Positions 15,451 to 31,473 of a stretch of 64,000 bases of DNA are shown here, piece by piece. The notes beneath the pieces are model-generated. The model did not search any database. It had not been told where the DNA came from and worked only from the letters and a program-made list of their open reading frames with translations. Position 1 is the first letter of the stretch. Every line of letters starts with the position of its first letter. The stretch comes from Thermosulfuriphilus ammonigenes. Its GTDB lineage: Bacteria > Desulfobacterota > Thermodesulfobacteria > Thermodesulfobacteriales > ST65. The position numbers and the translations under genes are program-made. The stretch spans positions 426,576 through 490,575 of the forward strand of contig NZ_CP048877.1 of the NCBI RefSeq assembly GCF_011207455.1, read 5' to 3'.

Positions 15451-15834
15451 ACTCAATCCTAAAGAAGGAGAACTTTTAAAAGCGGGTTCTCATTTTAAAA
15501 GAGTCAAAGAATAAAAGATCTTAAATATATTATCGAGATTAAAGGAAAACGAATTAAAGATCAAATAGATCAAATAAGAAAAGTATAATTAAAAAACAGA
15601 TAAACGATTGATCAAAACCATAAGAAAAACTACCTATAAAGGGCAAAAAGACAACAAAATTGACACTTTTATAAATCAAGTTTGAGGGTATTTTGCTAGA
15701 AATACAAAAGCAAAACAAGAGAGAATAAACCAGGGAAATAAACAACTTGACAGACTGTCTTTGAGTTACCCGGAAACTTAAGAACAAAAAGGTTCTGGAC
15801 TAAAGAAGGGCGGCGTGCTAATTATCCCCAAACT
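15451..15834 (+). other. AT-rich leader before the cobalamin riboswitch
   Basis: This 384-base stretch is much richer in A and T than its surroundings and holds no convincing gene. It must contain the promoter of the FapA-like gene (minus) and of the riboswitch operon (plus). TTGACA at 15749-15754 is the best -35 box for the latter, but no good -10 lies at the right distance. Another TTGACA is at 15660-15665. Confidence 0.4.
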
Positions 15835-16020
15835 TAAATGGGTCTGGTTAAGGGAAGTCCGGTGCAAGTCCGGCGCTGGCCCGCAACCGTGACCGGGGAC
15901 GAACGCCGCTTAGCCTGGAGGGGCAAGCCTCCGGGTGACAGGCCACTGGGGCCGGGAGGCCCCGGGAAGGCGCGGCAAGTAGGTTGATCCGGAAGCCGGG
16001 AGACCGGCCAGGCCCCTTTA
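15835..16020 (+). promoter_or_regulatory. Cobalamin riboswitch
   Basis: The conserved pieces of the B12 aptamer occur in order: 'GGGAAGTCCGGTGCAAGTCC' near 15852, 'CGCTGGCCCGCAACCGTGACC' type core just after it, 'GGGTGACAGGCCACTG', and the B12-box region 'GAAGCCGGGAGACCGGCC' at about 15992-16009. It lies about 105 bases before the cbiK start. Downstream, GCTTCGAGGC (16030-16039) can pair with GCCTCGAAGC (16083-16092). This arm encloses a second hairpin built on AGAAGGCC/GGCCCTTCT, a likely expression platform close to the ribosome binding site GGGAGGA at 16114-16120. No T-run follows, so control of translation is more likely than termination. Confidence 0.95.
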
Positions 16021-16124
16021 GGGAACGGGGCTTCGAGGCTTCCTGCCCTGTCCCAGGAGAAGGCCAATGGCCCTTCTGGCCCGCCTCGAAGCTTCTCCCC
16101 CAAATTTCTTTAAGGGAGGAGCCT

Positions 16125-21214: not shown

Positions 21215-22473
21215 TTAATATGGGGGAACTATGCTGTAGCCGAGGAACCCTTTTGAGGTGTAGCGGAGCCCCACGTAGATAGCCAGCAGAACAAAGAGCC
21301 GCTTCAACCAGATATCAGGGATGTACTTCTGGGCCGGGGGCCGATCATGGAGCCAATGAAGATTCCGATGAGCTCGGTCCCGATAAAGGGCCACCATACC
21401 GTAACCCCTTTGAGGACGATGTAGGTAAAGATACCGACAATCATCTTAACCAGGACGATAAAGGCCGAGGTTCCAGCCACAATGAACATGGGGAGCTTGA
21501 CGATATCGGTCATAAAGGGGACGAGCAGGAAGCCGCCACCGATTCCCAGAAAGACAGCGATAATGGCAATACCGAAACCACCGAGGGCCGCCAGGAGAGG
21601 GCTGAACTTAAACTCTACGCCGTAGAAGGTAAAGACACACTCGGTGAGACTAAAGCGGACGATCTTAACGCCCTCTTCTCCGCCGCCACCCTTTTTGGCC
21701 GCCTCCTCAAAACGCTTAGCGGCCTCCCGGGCGGCCTTCCGCTTGGCCCGAGCAGCCTCGGTGGTGCCGTACCACATGAAACCGGCCACGGCAAAGACGG
21801 CCAGGCCGAAGTAACCAATATAGGCCTTGAGGCTGATCTTTCCAGCGGTAAGCTCGGCAATTCCCACCGCACCGCCTACGGCACCAATGGCCATCGCTAT
21901 GGCCAGCGGGGCGACTATCCGCTTCATTCGCCAGTAGTTGATGGTGGAGACCAGGGCGCTGATACCCACCAAGAACATATTAGAGACGCGGATAGTGTCG
22001 GTGAGGAACTTATTAAGGGCCGGGTTGGTCTTCTTGAAGCTCTTGGCGTAGTCGGCCAGACCAAAGATAGTAATGTGCCCCACACCGGCCATAATGCCTC
22101 CGAAGGCCCCCACGGTAGAGAAGATCCAGCCCACCCAGATGGCCCACAGAAGGCCGACAATGAAGTTGGGCTTCGGGGCCCCAGGGATGCCCAGATAGCC
22201 ACGAGGGGCATGGGGGTTAACGCAGCCCTTCTGGCCTTCTTCAGTGCAAATAGGGGTTTGGGCGATGAGCTTTCCGAGTTTACCCTTTAGACCATAGTCT
22301 TTTGAGGCCGGGCCTAACCCCTGATGGGCCGCTGTCTGGGCCTCTGTGACTCCGTGCCCCTCCGGACCCTGGGCCACACCCACGTGGAGATAGGTCATCC
22401 AGGTAAGGACACTGATAATTAGGGTTAAAAGGACTACCTTCTTGTTAAAAACCTTGCTCCATACCTCTCTCAT
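21215..22473 (-). CDS. TauE/SafE-family sulfite exporter, frame shifted near 3' end
   Basis: This is an inner-membrane protein of the TauE/SafE (4-toluenesulfonate uptake/sulfite export) family. It has an N-terminal helix, several helices with the family element 'GIGGGFLLVPFM' and a cytoplasmic loop rich in Ala/Lys/Gly. The frame from ATG 22473 runs into a premature TGA at 21304. However, the other frame from about 21340 to 21215 reads 'KYIPDIWLKRLFVLLAIYVG' and onward, a normal last helix for this family. One extra G in the G/C run at 21331-21342 would join them ('GPR-A-QKYIP'). The cause is a sequencing error, a real mutation or -1 frameshifting. Sulfite, sulfate or another sulfur oxyanion is the likely substrate. 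Confidence 0.82.
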
Positions 22474-25171: not shown

Positions 25172-26449
25172 CTATTGGCCTCCGGTGACCCGGAGAAGAT
25201 CAGTCCCGATAAGATAAACGGCCAGGAGACCAAGGATCATCTTGGCCGCCGCGGCCAAAAAGCCGATGGTAAAGGCCGTCCCTCCGGCCTTTTTCATGTC
25301 TTCAATGGAGATGGAAAGGCCTATGCCGGCAAAACCTATGGCAAAAAACCACTTATAGACGGCATTCATGGCCCAAAAGGGTGTCCCCGGGATCTTGGGA
25401 CCACCGAGGAAGTCAACGTGAAGGCTGTTGAGAAAGACCAGAAGGAAAAATCCCAGGATAAAAATAGGAAACTTGTCCCGGATCAGCCGCCACTTGTTAA
25501 TCTCACCCTCAGAATGGCCAGCCCCCCCACGGAGGATATAGAACCAGAGGGCGTAGAGAACGATCAGAGGAAGGAACATGATTCGGGCTACATTTATAAG
25601 GACCGCCGTATCCCGGGCCTCAAGGCCATACCACTCGGCCGCCGCCACCAGCTGGGCCGTATTGAGAATGGCAATGGCCCCCCAGGCCCCAAATTGGGGC
25701 TCCGAGAGCCCCAGGGCCCGGCCAATATAGGGCATGGTAAAGAGCATAAGGGTTCCAAAAAGGAGGATTGTCCCGATAGCGTAGGCCATATCCCTGGGCT
25801 GGGCCCTGACCACCGGAGAGGTGGCGATAATGGCTGAGACTCCGCAGATCCCGGTGCCCGCTCCCATAATTCCCCCCAGGCCGTCAGGGACCCCAAAACG
25901 ACGACAGAGATACATAACCACAATGGCCGTGCCGAAGATAAAAACCGCCGTCAGCACCAGCCCTACCCCTCCGACCTTGATAACGTCTGACCAGACATAG
26001 TGCACTCCAAGAATAATGATTCCGGGTTTGATTATCGGCCTGGCAACCCCCACCCCGGGCAGAAAGACCCGGTGGACTCCAATGGTATTACGAATAAGGA
26101 TTCCCCCCAAAAGGAGAATGGCCACGTATTTGATCTGGGCCTTCTGGTGAAGGAAGGTGGCCCATTCCCAGCGATCACCCACCGTACCCCCCACCTTGGC
26201 CAGAGCCTGACGGTGTTTTTTGAGCTTGGCCGCAAGGGCGGCCAGCTCCTCAGGAGAGGCCCCCTTTTCCCGCAGAGTGGCCAGCTTTTCTTCCAGAAGG
26301 GGGATCTTCTTTGAGGCCAGATTGGCCCGGTGATAGGTAGCCAGATAGTGGTCAAGATTCATAGCCACAAAGGCAAAAAGCAGGCAGAGAAGAAGACCGG
26401 GGATGTATTTCGGCCAGTCTGGCACCAGGAGCCCGCGCCAAAAGGTCAT
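25172..26449 (-). CDS. YeiH-family putative sulfate exporter with inserted coiled coil
   Basis: This polytopic inner-membrane protein (UPF0324/YeiH family) has about ten helices and the family core 'GAGTGICGVSAIIATSPVV'. Between the first and second helix lies an extra charged helical stretch of about 50 residues ('KLATLREKGASPEELAALAA', about 47-75) that a typical short YeiH protein would not need. The start is the ATG at 26449 with GGAGGTGG five bases upstream; an in-frame GTG two codons earlier lies within that site. Operon: small membrane protein, this gene, UspA-like gene. Confidence 0.87.
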   Translation of the reverse strand: MTFWRGLLVPDWPKYIPGLLLCLLFAFVAMNLDHYLATYHRANLASKKIPLLEEKLATLREKGASPEELAALAAKLKKHRQALAKVGGTVGDRWEWATFLHQKAQIKYVAILLLGGILIRNTIGVHRVFLPGVGVARPIIKPGIIILGVHYVWSDVIKVGGVGLVLTAVFIFGTAIVVMYLCRRFGVPDGLGGIMGAGTGICGVSAIIATSPVVRAQPRDMAYAIGTILLFGTLMLFTMPYIGRALGLSEPQFGAWGAIAILNTAQLVAAAEWYGLEARDTAVLINVARIMFLPLIVLYALWFYILRGGAGHSEGEINKWRLIRDKFPIFILGFFLLVFLNSLHVDFLGGPKIPGTPFWAMNAVYKWFFAIGFAGIGLSISIEDMKKAGGTAFTIGFLAAAAKMILGLLAVYLIGTDLLRVTGGQ

Positions 26450-26461
26450 ACCCACCTCCAG

Positions 26462-26990: not shown

Positions 26991-28928
26991 ATGATCCACT
27001 TAAACCGCCTTTCCCTCAGGGCCCGGTTGGCCGTCCTTATTGTTATCTTTTCGATCTCGCTTCTGGCGGCCTTTGGGATCACCCACCACGCCAATCAGCG
27101 GGTTATCAGGGATCTAAAAGATCTCTATCAAAGAAGGGTCTTTCTCCTGGAGGGTCTTCAGCAAATGTCCCTTAAAGGGGCCAAAATCATGGAAAACCTG
27201 GAGAAGGCCAGAAGGGGTGAATTAGCCCTTGAGGATCTGGGAGCCAGCCTAAGGGGCGAGAAGAGACAGCTCCTTGAGAGCTGGCAGAGGATAAGGCCTG
27301 TTCTCTCCAGAGAGGAAGGCCTCAAAAAGGGGCTGGCTTCGGCCCTTGAGGCCTATCTGGGGGCCCTTGAAGGCTACCTTGGCCAGGGCCTGGCTTCAGG
27401 AGATCTCAGCTCACTTTATGAGGCCTGGCACCGGCTTGAGGGTTCGCTGGCCGAGGTCAGCCAGGGCCTCTTTGAAAGGGCCCGGGCCGACTTTGAGAGC
27501 GGTCTTTCGGCGGCCCAAAGGGGAGAGCGCTATATTCTGGCCGTCTTTGGCCTGGGTCTTATGGCCAGTCTGATGGCCTTTTTCCTCATCAGTGGCCAGA
27601 TAGCTCAGGGGCTCGGCCAGGTGGTCTCGGCCCTGGCTGAGGCCAGCGAAGGGCACTTCAAACAGGCCCTTCCCGTCTCGGGGCGAGATGAGCTGGCCCG
27701 ACTGGCCCTGGCCTTCAACAATCTGGTGGCCGGGGTGGGCCAGATCCTCAAGACCCTGGAGACCCAGACTGGATCTCTCCTGGTGGCGAGCAAGAAGCTC
27801 TCTCAGGTGGGTGAGAGCGTAGATGAAGGGGCCAAAGATCTTGATCGAGTGGCCAGCCAGGTAGCGGCCGCAGCCCAGCAGGCCACCGAAAGCCTGTCCG
27901 GAGTGGCCCAGGCGGTGGAGGAGATGACCACCGCTACCCAGGATATCGCCAAAAGCATCTCCGAGACTGCGGCGGTCACCAATCAGGCCCAAGCCAAGGC
28001 CCAGAGAGCCCGAACAGTGATTGAAAAACTCAGTCATGGTTCCAATCGCATCGGTGAGGTCATTAGGGTAATCAACCAGATCGCCGAGCAGACCAACCTC
28101 CTGGCCCTGAACGCCACCATCGAGGCCGCCCGGGCCGGGGAGGCCGGAAAGGGCTTTGCCGTGGTGGCCAATGAGGTCAAGGAGCTGGCCAAACAAACGG
28201 CCAAGGCTACCGAGGAGATTACGGAGATGATTCGTGGCATCCAAGAAGACACCCGAGAGGCGGTGGACTCCGTGGAGGAGATCACCCAGATCGTGGCCCA
28301 GATAAATGACCTCTCCAATACCATCGCCAGCGCCACGGAGGAGCAAACAGCCACCGTGGCCGAAATAAATCAGAATATCCAGGAAGGGATCCAGGGAGTC
28401 AGCCTGGTAAACGATGAAATCCAGACCCTGGCCAAGCGGGCTCAGGAGTTTACAGAGCTGGCCTCGGAAGTCCTCCTGTCTGAGGAGGCCATCTCCGACA
28501 TCGTCGAAGAGATCAAGACAGTGGGAGAATTTTTTGAGGTAAGTGAGCAGGCGGTAGCCAGGGCCCAGGACCAGGCCAGTGATTCGGTAAGGATTATGGC
28601 CATGTGTCTTCAGCATTATAGCTGGCGCGAAAGAGTCCTTGAGGGAATCCTTAAAGGGACACCCCCTGAGGTTGAGACCGACCACAGCCGCTGTGCCTTG
28701 GGGCGTTGGTTGGCTGGCTACCGGGCCCAAGGCCCGAGGGAGGAACAAATCATCTCCCGGCTTGTCCCCGTCCATGAGGCCCTTCACGGCCAGGTGATCA
28801 AGATAAAAGAGCTCATCGGCAAAGGAGCCGACATTAGGGAGGTTTACGGAGTTCTGGTAAAGGAGATCTCCCCCCGAGTAAAAGAGGTGGTCTCGGCCCT
28901 CAAGGAGCTTCGGGGGGCCTTCGCCTAA
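26991..28928 (+). CDS. Methyl-accepting chemotaxis protein with C-terminal CZB domain
   Basis: This 645-residue chemoreceptor has membrane helices near 10-30 and 178-200 that frame a small periplasmic four-helix sensor. A HAMP domain (about 200-250) follows, then the signalling hairpin with the conserved tip '[19 protein letters not shown]'. Residues about 540-645 form a chemoreceptor zinc-binding domain with the pattern H-x-W early, 'CALGRWL' and 'VHEALHG', which holds zinc and can sense oxidants such as hypochlorite. It would control CheA and flagellar or other motility. Its 3' end overlaps the convergent cytochrome gene by 29 bases. Confidence 0.94.
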
Positions 28929-31311
28929 AGACCCAGGCCATAAAGGCCATGGCCGCCGCTCCCATGGCGGCCATGGCCCCCAAATCATGAAGAGTAAAAA
29001 GAATCTGCCTTAGATTGGCCCCCTGGAGAAAAACAAGCCCCAGACCGGTTACCGCCTGAAAGGTGATCAGGCCAAGGGCCAGGTAGAGACCGGCCCCCCT
29101 GTCTTCCATCTTCAGGAAAACCCCAAAGGCCCCCACTACCGCCAGGGGGGCTACCAGCTTGTGGAACAGGGCCACCCTGGCCATGGCCAAAGGGGTGAGA
29201 AAGCGTCCCAGGAGGACGATTACAGTCGGGCCCAATAGGGCGACAAGGACCATTAAAAGAAAAATCCGCCGGGAAGCTCTGGCTAAAAAGGCTTCTTTAT
29301 TTCCCGCCGGCGAGGCCCAAAGGACTAAAGAAAGCCCGATTAAGAAAAGCCCGACCAGCGTCCCATAATAAAGAAGGGGCTCCAGTATCTCCTGCCTCAG
29401 AGATCCAGACCAAACGGCCAGATGGCTGTAGCCAAGAACCTTATAATTCGGTTCCCAGAGAAGCTCCCCGTCTCTTCCCCAGAGGTCAGTCAGGGTGGGC
29501 CTGTAGAAGAATTCAGACTTAAATGAATGACACTCGGTGCAGCCCTTTGCCCCCAGGGCGGCTCGGGCCGGAAGGATATTGTGGGAAATTTTAAAGGTCG
29601 AGGCATAGGGGCTGGCCTCCCAGGGAAAACGGAAAAGAGGCTGCCAGACACTTCCATCCTCGGTATAGGCCGCGTCCCTTACCAAAACGATTCTTTCCCC
29701 CTCTGAAGGACGGTAGTACTCCCTTAGAGCTGAAAGAATGGCCCGAATCTCTTCTGGCCGGTTAACTTCTGGAAAGCCGTCTTTGTTGTCATCAACTATC
29801 CGGGATAGTTCGGAGTACCTCCGGCCGCGGCTCTCAAAATAGACCCGCCAGAGACCAAAGATGACCTTCATGGGTAAAGGCTTTATGGCCTCCTGATCCG
29901 CAGTCTTTAGGCCTACCCACAGGGTGTGAACCCGGTTAAGAGGCCAAATCTTTCCCTTGTACCAGCCTTTTTCCGGAGCGTAGTCAAAGGAGGTGGTCAG
30001 GTTCCCCAGATCAAAAAGGGCAAAGAAATTCCAGGGACGACCGTCCGGGCCATAAAGGCTCCAGACCCTTTTTAAAGGGGGCCGGATCTCCGGGGATTGA
30101 TTAAGAACGGTGGCTTCCTGAATCAAAGCGGCCCGGATGGAGCGACGGGCCACGTGGCATCCCTGACAGGCAATCTTCTCCAGGTGTCTTAAAGGAAGGC
30201 CCAGATGGCGGACCTTGGGGGCCCCGTACCTTCCCTGGCCATGACAGTCAAGACAGGGACGGACGCTACCGTCGAGATCATCCCGGACAAAGCCGCCTGG
30301 ATCATCCCCTTTGCCTATTTCGTGCCTTTCGCGTCCAAAGATGCGGGAATCTCCGGCTCGGGAGCCGGCCCAGTGACAGTCCACACACTTGAGCCCAGCC
30401 CGAAGATGGACATCATCTCTGGCCAGATAGGCCGTGGCCCGCTTGAGGGTGTCTCCACGTCGGTGGCAGAAAAGACAATTCTTGGAGGGAACCTCTCTGG
30501 TGAATCGGGGACGGAACCGCCCATCGGGAAGAAATTTTTTAAGATCATAGATTACCTTCGGGGATTGGCCCTCTTTTACGCTCCCCAGGACTTTACCCAG
30601 ACCTCCTCCAGCGGTAGCCGCCCATTTGAAGTTCCAGCGTTTTATCTGCTCGGCACGTTCTTTAAAACGATAACCGGGCAGATGACAGATAAGGCAGTCA
30701 GCCTCAAGCACCCCGCTCCTGGTCCAGAAAGACCGAAAATAGTCACCATCATAGTCGTTAATGCCTCCGGGCAGATAGCCCCTTTCCCTCATAAAATCAT
30801 CATAGCGCCGCCCGCCGCGGTCTGTCTCCGCCGGACCACCGCCGGGATGACAGGAACCACAGACAGCCACAAACTCAAAGGAGGTAAGATCTATCTGCCG
30901 CGGTGAGTCGTTCTTTTTTCTCGCCAACTGGCGATGGGGCGGCCCTGGCCCTCACCAGCGCCCCCCATAGCGCCCGGGAGAGAGAATCCAGGGATACCGC
31001 CGGCTCTGCCATGAAGGAGGGGCTTCCCCCCGGCCCTGCTGAAAATGATAGGCCGAAGTTATGAGATCGTAGTCATGGCAGGCACCACAGGTCTTTCGGG
31101 GGCTATAGGGCCGAGCCTTCCGGGCTTCTTGAGGGTTGATGACCCGCCCCTTTTCATCACGAAGATAAAAAGGGGGGCAAATACCATAGGCCGATCGGCG
31201 GGCCAGCTCCTCAGGGCTCCTTTTGGCCACCCGGGGGGTGAAGACCTGCCCGGTGGCCGGTGGAACCAAGAAGAGAAGCAGAAAACAAAAGAGGAAAGAC
31301 TTTATTTTCAT
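28900..31311 (-). CDS. Octahaem membrane cytochrome c, probable selenoprotein (in-frame UGA)
   Basis: One frame runs from ATG 31311 to 28900 (803 codons) and is interrupted only by a TGA at 30952-30954 (codon 120). Before it come a signal peptide (1-21) and one haem site (CGACH, C75-H79). After it come seven more CxxCH sites (CGSCH, CLICH, CLFCH, CVDCH, CLDCH, CQGCH, CTECH), then about five membrane helices with histidines ('LFHKLVAP', 'TLHDLGAM') that could bind haem b. The downstream half alone would need a TTG start and would lack a signal peptide, which a periplasmic c-type cytochrome needs. So both halves are one protein, with UGA read as selenocysteine or, less likely, a disrupted gene. 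A stem-loop fitting a bacterial SECIS follows the UGA. The redox partner is unknown; the architecture suggests electron exchange between quinones and the periplasm. Confidence 0.8.
30921..30954 (-). promoter_or_regulatory. Candidate bacterial SECIS after UGA
   Basis: On the minus strand the UGA (30954-30952) is followed after 22 bases by the stem TCGCC/GGCGA enclosing the loop AGTT (30934-30921). A short stem, a small loop with G in its first two bases and a UGA-loop distance of about 16-37 bases are the described features of bacterial SECIS elements. A competing longer pairing, CTGGTGA with TCGCCAG, would include the UGA itself in a stem. Confidence 0.5.
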
Positions 31312-31473
31312 CTACCCTCCAGCGACCTTCTTTTATAGAAGACGCCTCCAGGAACATCAAGGAAAGTAAAGTTTTTAAAGAAGACGCCGATAGATACTCA
31401 AGCCGGCCAATTTTTAAAGTTAGGTGTTGGTCTTACCGTTTAAAGCTATAAAACGGGGGGCGACCGAGCCACC

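Follow-up and report, generated by a model that had tools for sequence, protein, structure and literature searches.

An octahaem cytochrome with a predicted selenocysteine, remotely related to octahaem tetrathionate reductase, points to an undescribed arsenic redox enzyme

The gene described here lies in a 64,000-nucleotide stretch of the Thermosulfuriphilus ammonigenes genome (GCF_011207455.1; NZ_CP048877.1, positions 426,576 to 490,575; referred to below as the window), where the minus-strand frame from 31311 to 28900 is open but for a single in-frame TGA at 30952-30954. A signal peptide and the first CxxCH haem motif are encoded upstream of this TGA, and seven more CxxCH motifs and a set of hydrophobic helices downstream of it. 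The downstream open reading frame (ORF) taken alone starts at TTG 30927 (MARKKND) and has no signal peptide, and a 5-bp stem (TCGCC/GGCGA) with the loop AGTT lies 22 nt past the UGA. Each of these features is where the original prediction had placed it, including the missing export signal of the downstream part and the hairpin, from which it had been proposed that the two halves form one cytochrome with selenocysteine (Sec) at residue 120. As set out below, comparison with relatives leaves us in very little doubt that the window gene encodes one selenoprotein, with Sec at that residue. Most often these relatives, one of which is a second copy within the genome itself, are found amid arsenic-resistance genes, and the family thereby points to an arsenic redox enzyme not yet described.

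A scan of 84,980 species genomes returned 263 relatives, the best 80 of which were read; one of these loci did not cover residue 120. Across the other 79, all from other genomes, the column at residue 120 was UGA in 13, Cys in 62, Ser in 3 and Tyr in 1, with Trp or Arg in none. An initial search, covering 60 relatives, had found the TGA in the same column of a paralogue in the genome itself (C1:713544-715940, 55% identity) and of relatives in genomes G013 and G057 (51% identity for the latter), a recurrence that chance would not come near to producing; the more distant relatives L005 and L006 proved to have Sec too when their loci were read. On a 77-row tree, with the Sec column masked, four changes were required for Sec, and the two states were mutually nested: three Cys members (L037, L038 and L108) fell within a Sec clade and a Sec member (L055) within a Cys clade. 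Because of this pattern, the tree indicates that codon 120 has alternated between UGA and codons for Cys, which is also the behaviour of established Sec/Cys families. Within the phylum, family members were present in 53 of 395 genomes, and many of the matches contained exactly one TGA, residue 120 not having been checked one by one.

The hairpin 3′ of the UGA resembles a bacterial selenocysteine insertion sequence (SECIS). When the 50 nt past the codon were folded and compared with shuffled sequences, the mean z was −1.29 in Sec members and +0.23 in non-Sec members (Mann-Whitney p 5.5e-5), with a z of only −0.62 for the window itself. The AGUU loop lies 22 nt from the UGA in most Sec members and 16 nt from it in three distant ones. 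All five pairs were kept in the seven sequences that share the same register, where the outer pair was UA, CG or GC; the inner pairs were invariant, and covariation thus concerns one pair only. The Cys member L037 keeps UUUCGCC-AGUU-GGCGAAA at the same distance, which we read as a fossil SECIS persisting in a Cys lineage nested in the Sec clade.

The genome also carries the selenium machinery: selA (C1:887909-889264), selB (C1:1948230-1950128), selD (C1:748881-749804, itself with one in-frame TGA) and, for selC, tRNA-Sec (C1:2200871-2200964) were all found above curated cut-offs. Although selA was present in 18 of 19 tested TGA-bearing genomes of the phylum, the exception being a 90% complete assembly, it is a weak discriminator there, since most genomes lacking the TGA carry selA too. 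The dominance of UGA and Cys in the column, the complete machinery and the conserved hairpin all support the Sec that had been proposed, and these comparisons lend good support to decoding of the UGA by SelB and tRNA-Sec under the direction of the hairpin immediately 3′ of it.

One other explanation for the TGA is that the gene has been split or has decayed into a pseudogene, or that the TGA is a sequencing error, and ordinary ORF calling does yield two ORFs. This has almost no probability in our estimation, given that independent genomes share the TGA at this column, with the sequence conserved on either side and Cys in the rest, and that all eight haem motifs are intact; the position-120 TGA is shared by independent assemblies, so it is not an error. 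Scarcely more credible is a TGA read as some other amino acid through recoding or suppression, or passed by leaky readthrough. Such a reading draws on the fact that Sec is here predicted from sequence, but it has to contend with a column whose alternatives to UGA are Cys, Ser and Tyr and never Trp or Arg, with the presence of both Sec machinery and a SECIS-like hairpin, and with the gene's own stop, which is itself a TGA (28900-28902).

Judged by profile comparison, the family is a widespread, remote homologue of octahaem tetrathionate reductase (OTR), and the window protein is very probably an OTR-like octahaem enzyme. It scored 25.7 bits against TIGR04315, below the curated cut-off of 375, and hhalign against five TIGR04315 proteins gave a probability of 98.5 (E 1.8e-15) for the core that runs from haem 3 to haem 7; in a permissive alignment the haem motifs at both ends were in register too. 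Like TIGR04315 proteins, among them the Shewanella OTR (PDB 1SP3), the family has eight CxxCH motifs, invariant in all 40 aligned relatives, a Lys aligned with the OTR haem ligand, and a Cys or Sec between haems 1 and 2 (NNF[C/U] in TIGR04315). Unlike them, apart from the low score, it adds a C-terminal membrane domain and an arsenic neighbourhood, and its Sec motif (GGRW[U]SPAP) lies 31 residues ahead of haem 2, whereas the NNF[U] of TIGR04315 lies 10 ahead. One in-frame TGA occurs in 8 of 23 above-cut-off TIGR04315 matches in the phylum, and a TIGR04315 protein annotated in GenBank as a selenoprotein appears in the list of a 2026 review. Four true OTR-family octahaem cytochromes (L123, L125, L127 and L128) have Sec at NNF/NSF[U] between haems 1 and 2, in the column held by Cys64 in 1SP3. 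ExtKL (NF040886), from Geobacter and relatives, is likewise a multihaem c-type cytochrome with one Sec; unlike the window protein it has five CxxCH motifs and its Sec follows the haems in GHxIPDG[U]PTPNR, and the window protein showed no significant match to the NF040886 model and lacks the IPDG[U]PTPNR motif. MmcA (TIGR04314) shares a related haem core, with a weak match of the window protein to its model, and differs in having seven haems, in lacking the catalytic second haem and in being Rnf-linked.

Haem 2 of OTR is catalytic and Lys-ligated (PMC11024163), and a residue count along 1SP3 identifies Cys64 and Lys153 as the conserved residues of OTR. By analogy, haem 2 of the window protein is the presumed catalytic haem, and Lys290, which aligns with Lys153 and is conserved in 37 of 40 relatives, is probably its sixth ligand. 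The three exceptions, all Asn, are exactly the three proteins with Ser at residue 120 (L094, L097 and L099), which suggests that a Sec/Cys120-Lys290 pair was lost as a unit. On the strength of the alignment and of this joint loss, we propose an active site made up of Sec120, Lys290 and haem 2, in which Sec120 (Cys in most relatives), situated in the linker between haems 1 and 2, would be a substrate-binding selenolate; Cys45 is a possible partner for it. Conserved His residues of the soluble domain outside CxxCH (89, 302, 330, 369, 376 and 577, plus 462 in 34 of 40 and 491 in 35 of 40, the last being Tyr in the window protein) appear about sufficient in number for seven bis-His haems. The Ser120/Asn290 proteins form a Planctomycete clade that retains all eight haems and may possibly be a non-catalytic wire.

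Table 1. Features of the octahaem cytochrome gene in the window, and the ars operon that holds its paralogue (residue counts refer to the 40 aligned relatives unless stated otherwise).
Feature	Position	Strand	Basis or remark
Octahaem selenocytochrome, complete gene	28900..31311	-	803 aa, predicted Sec at residue 120; frame reading
Shine-Dalgarno-like GGAGGG ahead of ATG 31311	31315..31320	-	Sequence
Putative signal peptide, about residues 1-21, hydrophobic N-terminus	31249..31311	-	Sequence letters
Cys45, sole other conserved non-haem Cys (38/40)	31177..31179	-	Family alignment
Haem 1, CGACH (C75)	31075..31089	-	Invariant motif
In-frame UGA, predicted Sec120 in SPGRYGGRW[U]GP	30952..30954	-	Sec/Cys at the column in 75/79 relatives
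SECIS-like hairpin UCGCC-AGUU-GGCGA, apical loop 22 nt past UGA	30921..30934	-	Folding and comparison
Haem 2, CGSCH (C151), followed by PGGGP	30847..30861	-	Motif alignment
Haem 3, CLICH (C206)	30682..30696	-	Motif alignment
Haem 4, CLFCH (C279)	30463..30477	-	Motif alignment
Lys290, aligned with OTR Lys153 (haem-2 ligand)	30442..30444	-	Conserved 37/40
Haem 5, CVDCH (C309)	30373..30387	-	Motif alignment
Haem 6, CLDCH (C353)	30241..30255	-	Motif alignment
Haem 7, CQGCH (C382)	30154..30168	-	Motif alignment
Haem 8, CTECH (C591)	29527..29541	-	Motif alignment
C-terminal membrane region, five predicted long helices, residues 630-796, conserved His717	28924..29424	-	
Own-genome ars operon	G000:C1:703559-717439 (L113:7560-9920, L112:43-11439)		Also holds a PIN-like ORF between the membrane fusion protein and RND pump genes

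The C-terminal tail had been called cytochrome-b-like, a description that stands for 6 of the 40 relatives, which match FdnI/b561-type cytochrome b, and is only partly apt for the window protein, whose tail matches no such family. His717 is kept in the window protein and in 37 of 40 relatives, and a quinone link through the tail is plausible. From its predicted parts, the 803-residue protein would be exported and would carry eight c-type haems, with the C-terminal helices holding it in the cytoplasmic membrane.

The proposed substrate comes from gene context. The commonest neighbour clusters of the relatives, formed by single linkage with ArsM and ArsF merged into one, were an ArsP/SaoE/SO_0444-like permease, ArsM/ArsF, ArsR, a porin, parts of an RND pump, ArsG, ACR3 and low-molecular-weight ArsC. 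Cluster representatives scored above cut-off for ACR3 (TIGR00832, 465 bits) and ArsG (NF040495, 241 bits), those for ArsC and the permease fell short of the cut-offs of the families that they matched, and the ArsM representative was a fragment. Where at least 12 kb of flank was available, ACR3, ArsG, ArsC or ArsM/F was present at 29 of 43 loci. In an independent set, made up of the 20 phylum genomes with a full ACR3, 8 had this gene no more than 15 kb from the cytochrome, against roughly 1% expected (binomial p ~7e-11 under an assumed chance of 1.25%). The paralogue in the genome itself is part of an operon in the order ArsR, ArsP_1 permease, ArsC, ACR3, TolC, membrane fusion protein, RND, selenocytochrome, TauE and FmdE. 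A cytochrome almost the same as this paralogue, again next to RND and TauE, occurs in a Thermodesulfatator metagenome-assembled genome (L033), which suggests recent transfer. A search of the literature for octahaem or multihaem cytochromes paired with arsenic or ars operons found nothing on this family.

Given this ars-operon context, we propose that the protein is a quinone-linked periplasmic oxidoreductase of arsenicals, in which electrons would move among the membrane domain, the haem wire and an arsenic species bound to the selenolate. Taken whole, with its Sec/Cys-Lys-haem active site, this is the explanation we favour, with considerable reservation; an arsenic substrate is a somewhat safer proposition for the family as such, and for the window copy it is evenly balanced. 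As to direction, we have a slight preference for pentavalent arsenicals being reduced, since the OTR relatives are low-potential reductases, the haems of OTR and MmcA having low potentials. Oxidation of trivalent arsenicals for detoxification would be nearly as likely and fits the efflux context almost as well.

Several observations weigh against this proposal. About one-third of the well-covered loci lack a specific ars gene, and the window copy, outside any ars operon where the paralogue and many relatives lie in or next to one, is flanked by a CZB-type methyl-accepting chemotaxis protein (MCP) and a GGDEF protein (diguanylate cyclase), with no ars gene beside it. It is also a long-branch paralogue with odd residues at conserved sites (L289, K in 39 of 40; Y491, H in 35 of 40; F429, H in 27 of 40). 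The joint change to Ser120 and Asn290 is confined to a single clade and so counts as one event. hhalign did not superpose Sec120 on OTR Cys64, so we rejected a residue equivalence and claim only a shared position in the haem 1-2 linker. Finally, Foldseek of the AlphaFold model (predicted local distance difference test 83) against the PDB gave no match at E < 0.001, multihaem folds with little secondary structure being poor queries. Separately, a PDB sequence search with the family profile returned FdnI only, and a plasmid collection gave no match.

An arsenic role is less well founded for the window copy than for the paralogue, and its main rival there is a sulfur substrate: Sec would be correctly assigned, the enzyme would act on sulfur compounds (tetrathionate, polysulfide or sulfite) or on nitrogen oxides, and the ars context would be a by-product of gene clustering. 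This would suit a remote homologue of OTR, which is reported to reduce tetrathionate, nitrite and hydroxylamine, and it would suit a copy that stands apart from ars genes and has a TauE gene (21304-22473) and a YeiH-family putative sulfate exporter gene (25172-26455) some kilobases away; TauE/SafE genes also recur next to relatives. The recurrence of ars genes across many phyla and the embedding of the paralogue in an ars operon speak against it, and we regard it as rather unlikely overall. A still less probable reading is that the cytochrome does no substrate chemistry and is simply a wire from quinol to an electron acceptor that is extracellular or in the outer membrane, with Sec120 or Cys120 in a structural role. 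Eight haems on a membrane anchor, a porin as a frequent neighbour (cluster 3, 22 loci) and the kinship with MmcA, an electron conduit, are all consistent with such a wire. However, MmcA has lost the catalytic second haem, which all 40 family members retain, the replacement of Cys by Sec suggests catalysis, and residues 120 and 290 change together.

The respiratory arsenate reductase ArrAB and arsenite oxidase carry out quinone-linked redox chemistry on arsenic outside the cytoplasm that is comparable to what is proposed here; these are molybdoenzymes, whereas the window protein is an octahaem cytochrome. We offer as a tentative and rather doubtful extension that arsenic redox catalysis in this family is quinone-linked and uses no molybdenum, with a selenolate/thiolate-Lys-haem active site, and that the enzyme serves either as the missing reductase of arsenate respirers that lack arrAB or as an anaerobic periplasmic oxidase that detoxifies methylarsenite. 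Bacteria that respire arsenate without arrAB are known (PMC4432346, PMC9751042). For one of these a cytochrome has been put forward, and a candidate family that can be tested is therefore of use. The cytochromes found in a 2026 inventory of 119 selenoprotein families are ExtKL and TIGR04315 only; the present family adds a selenoprotein subfamily not evident there, one that places Sec beside a haem array and ties it to arsenic genes across many phyla. Automated annotation is prone to split or truncate its Sec members.

Other TGA-bearing genes were seen in the same genome. Two molybdopterin oxidoreductase genes (C1:335470-336747 and C1:980725-982401), each with one in-frame TGA, are probably Sec formate dehydrogenases, and two ExtKL-type selenocytochromes (C1:1755392-1756651 and C1:242440-243597) also have one TGA each. 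In G057 (L121), an ExtKL gene lies directly 3′ of the octahaem selenocytochrome gene. Six homologues (L052, L055, L067, L073, L102 and L106) appear to be in two pieces or to end before the membrane tail, with an ORF of the same family directly downstream, and could be assembly frameshifts or real splits. In the window, the convergent MCP gene (26991-28928) shares 29 bp with the 3′ end of the cytochrome gene (28900-28928), and a cobalamin riboswitch (Rfam RF00174, 81.9 bits) lies at 15828-16026.

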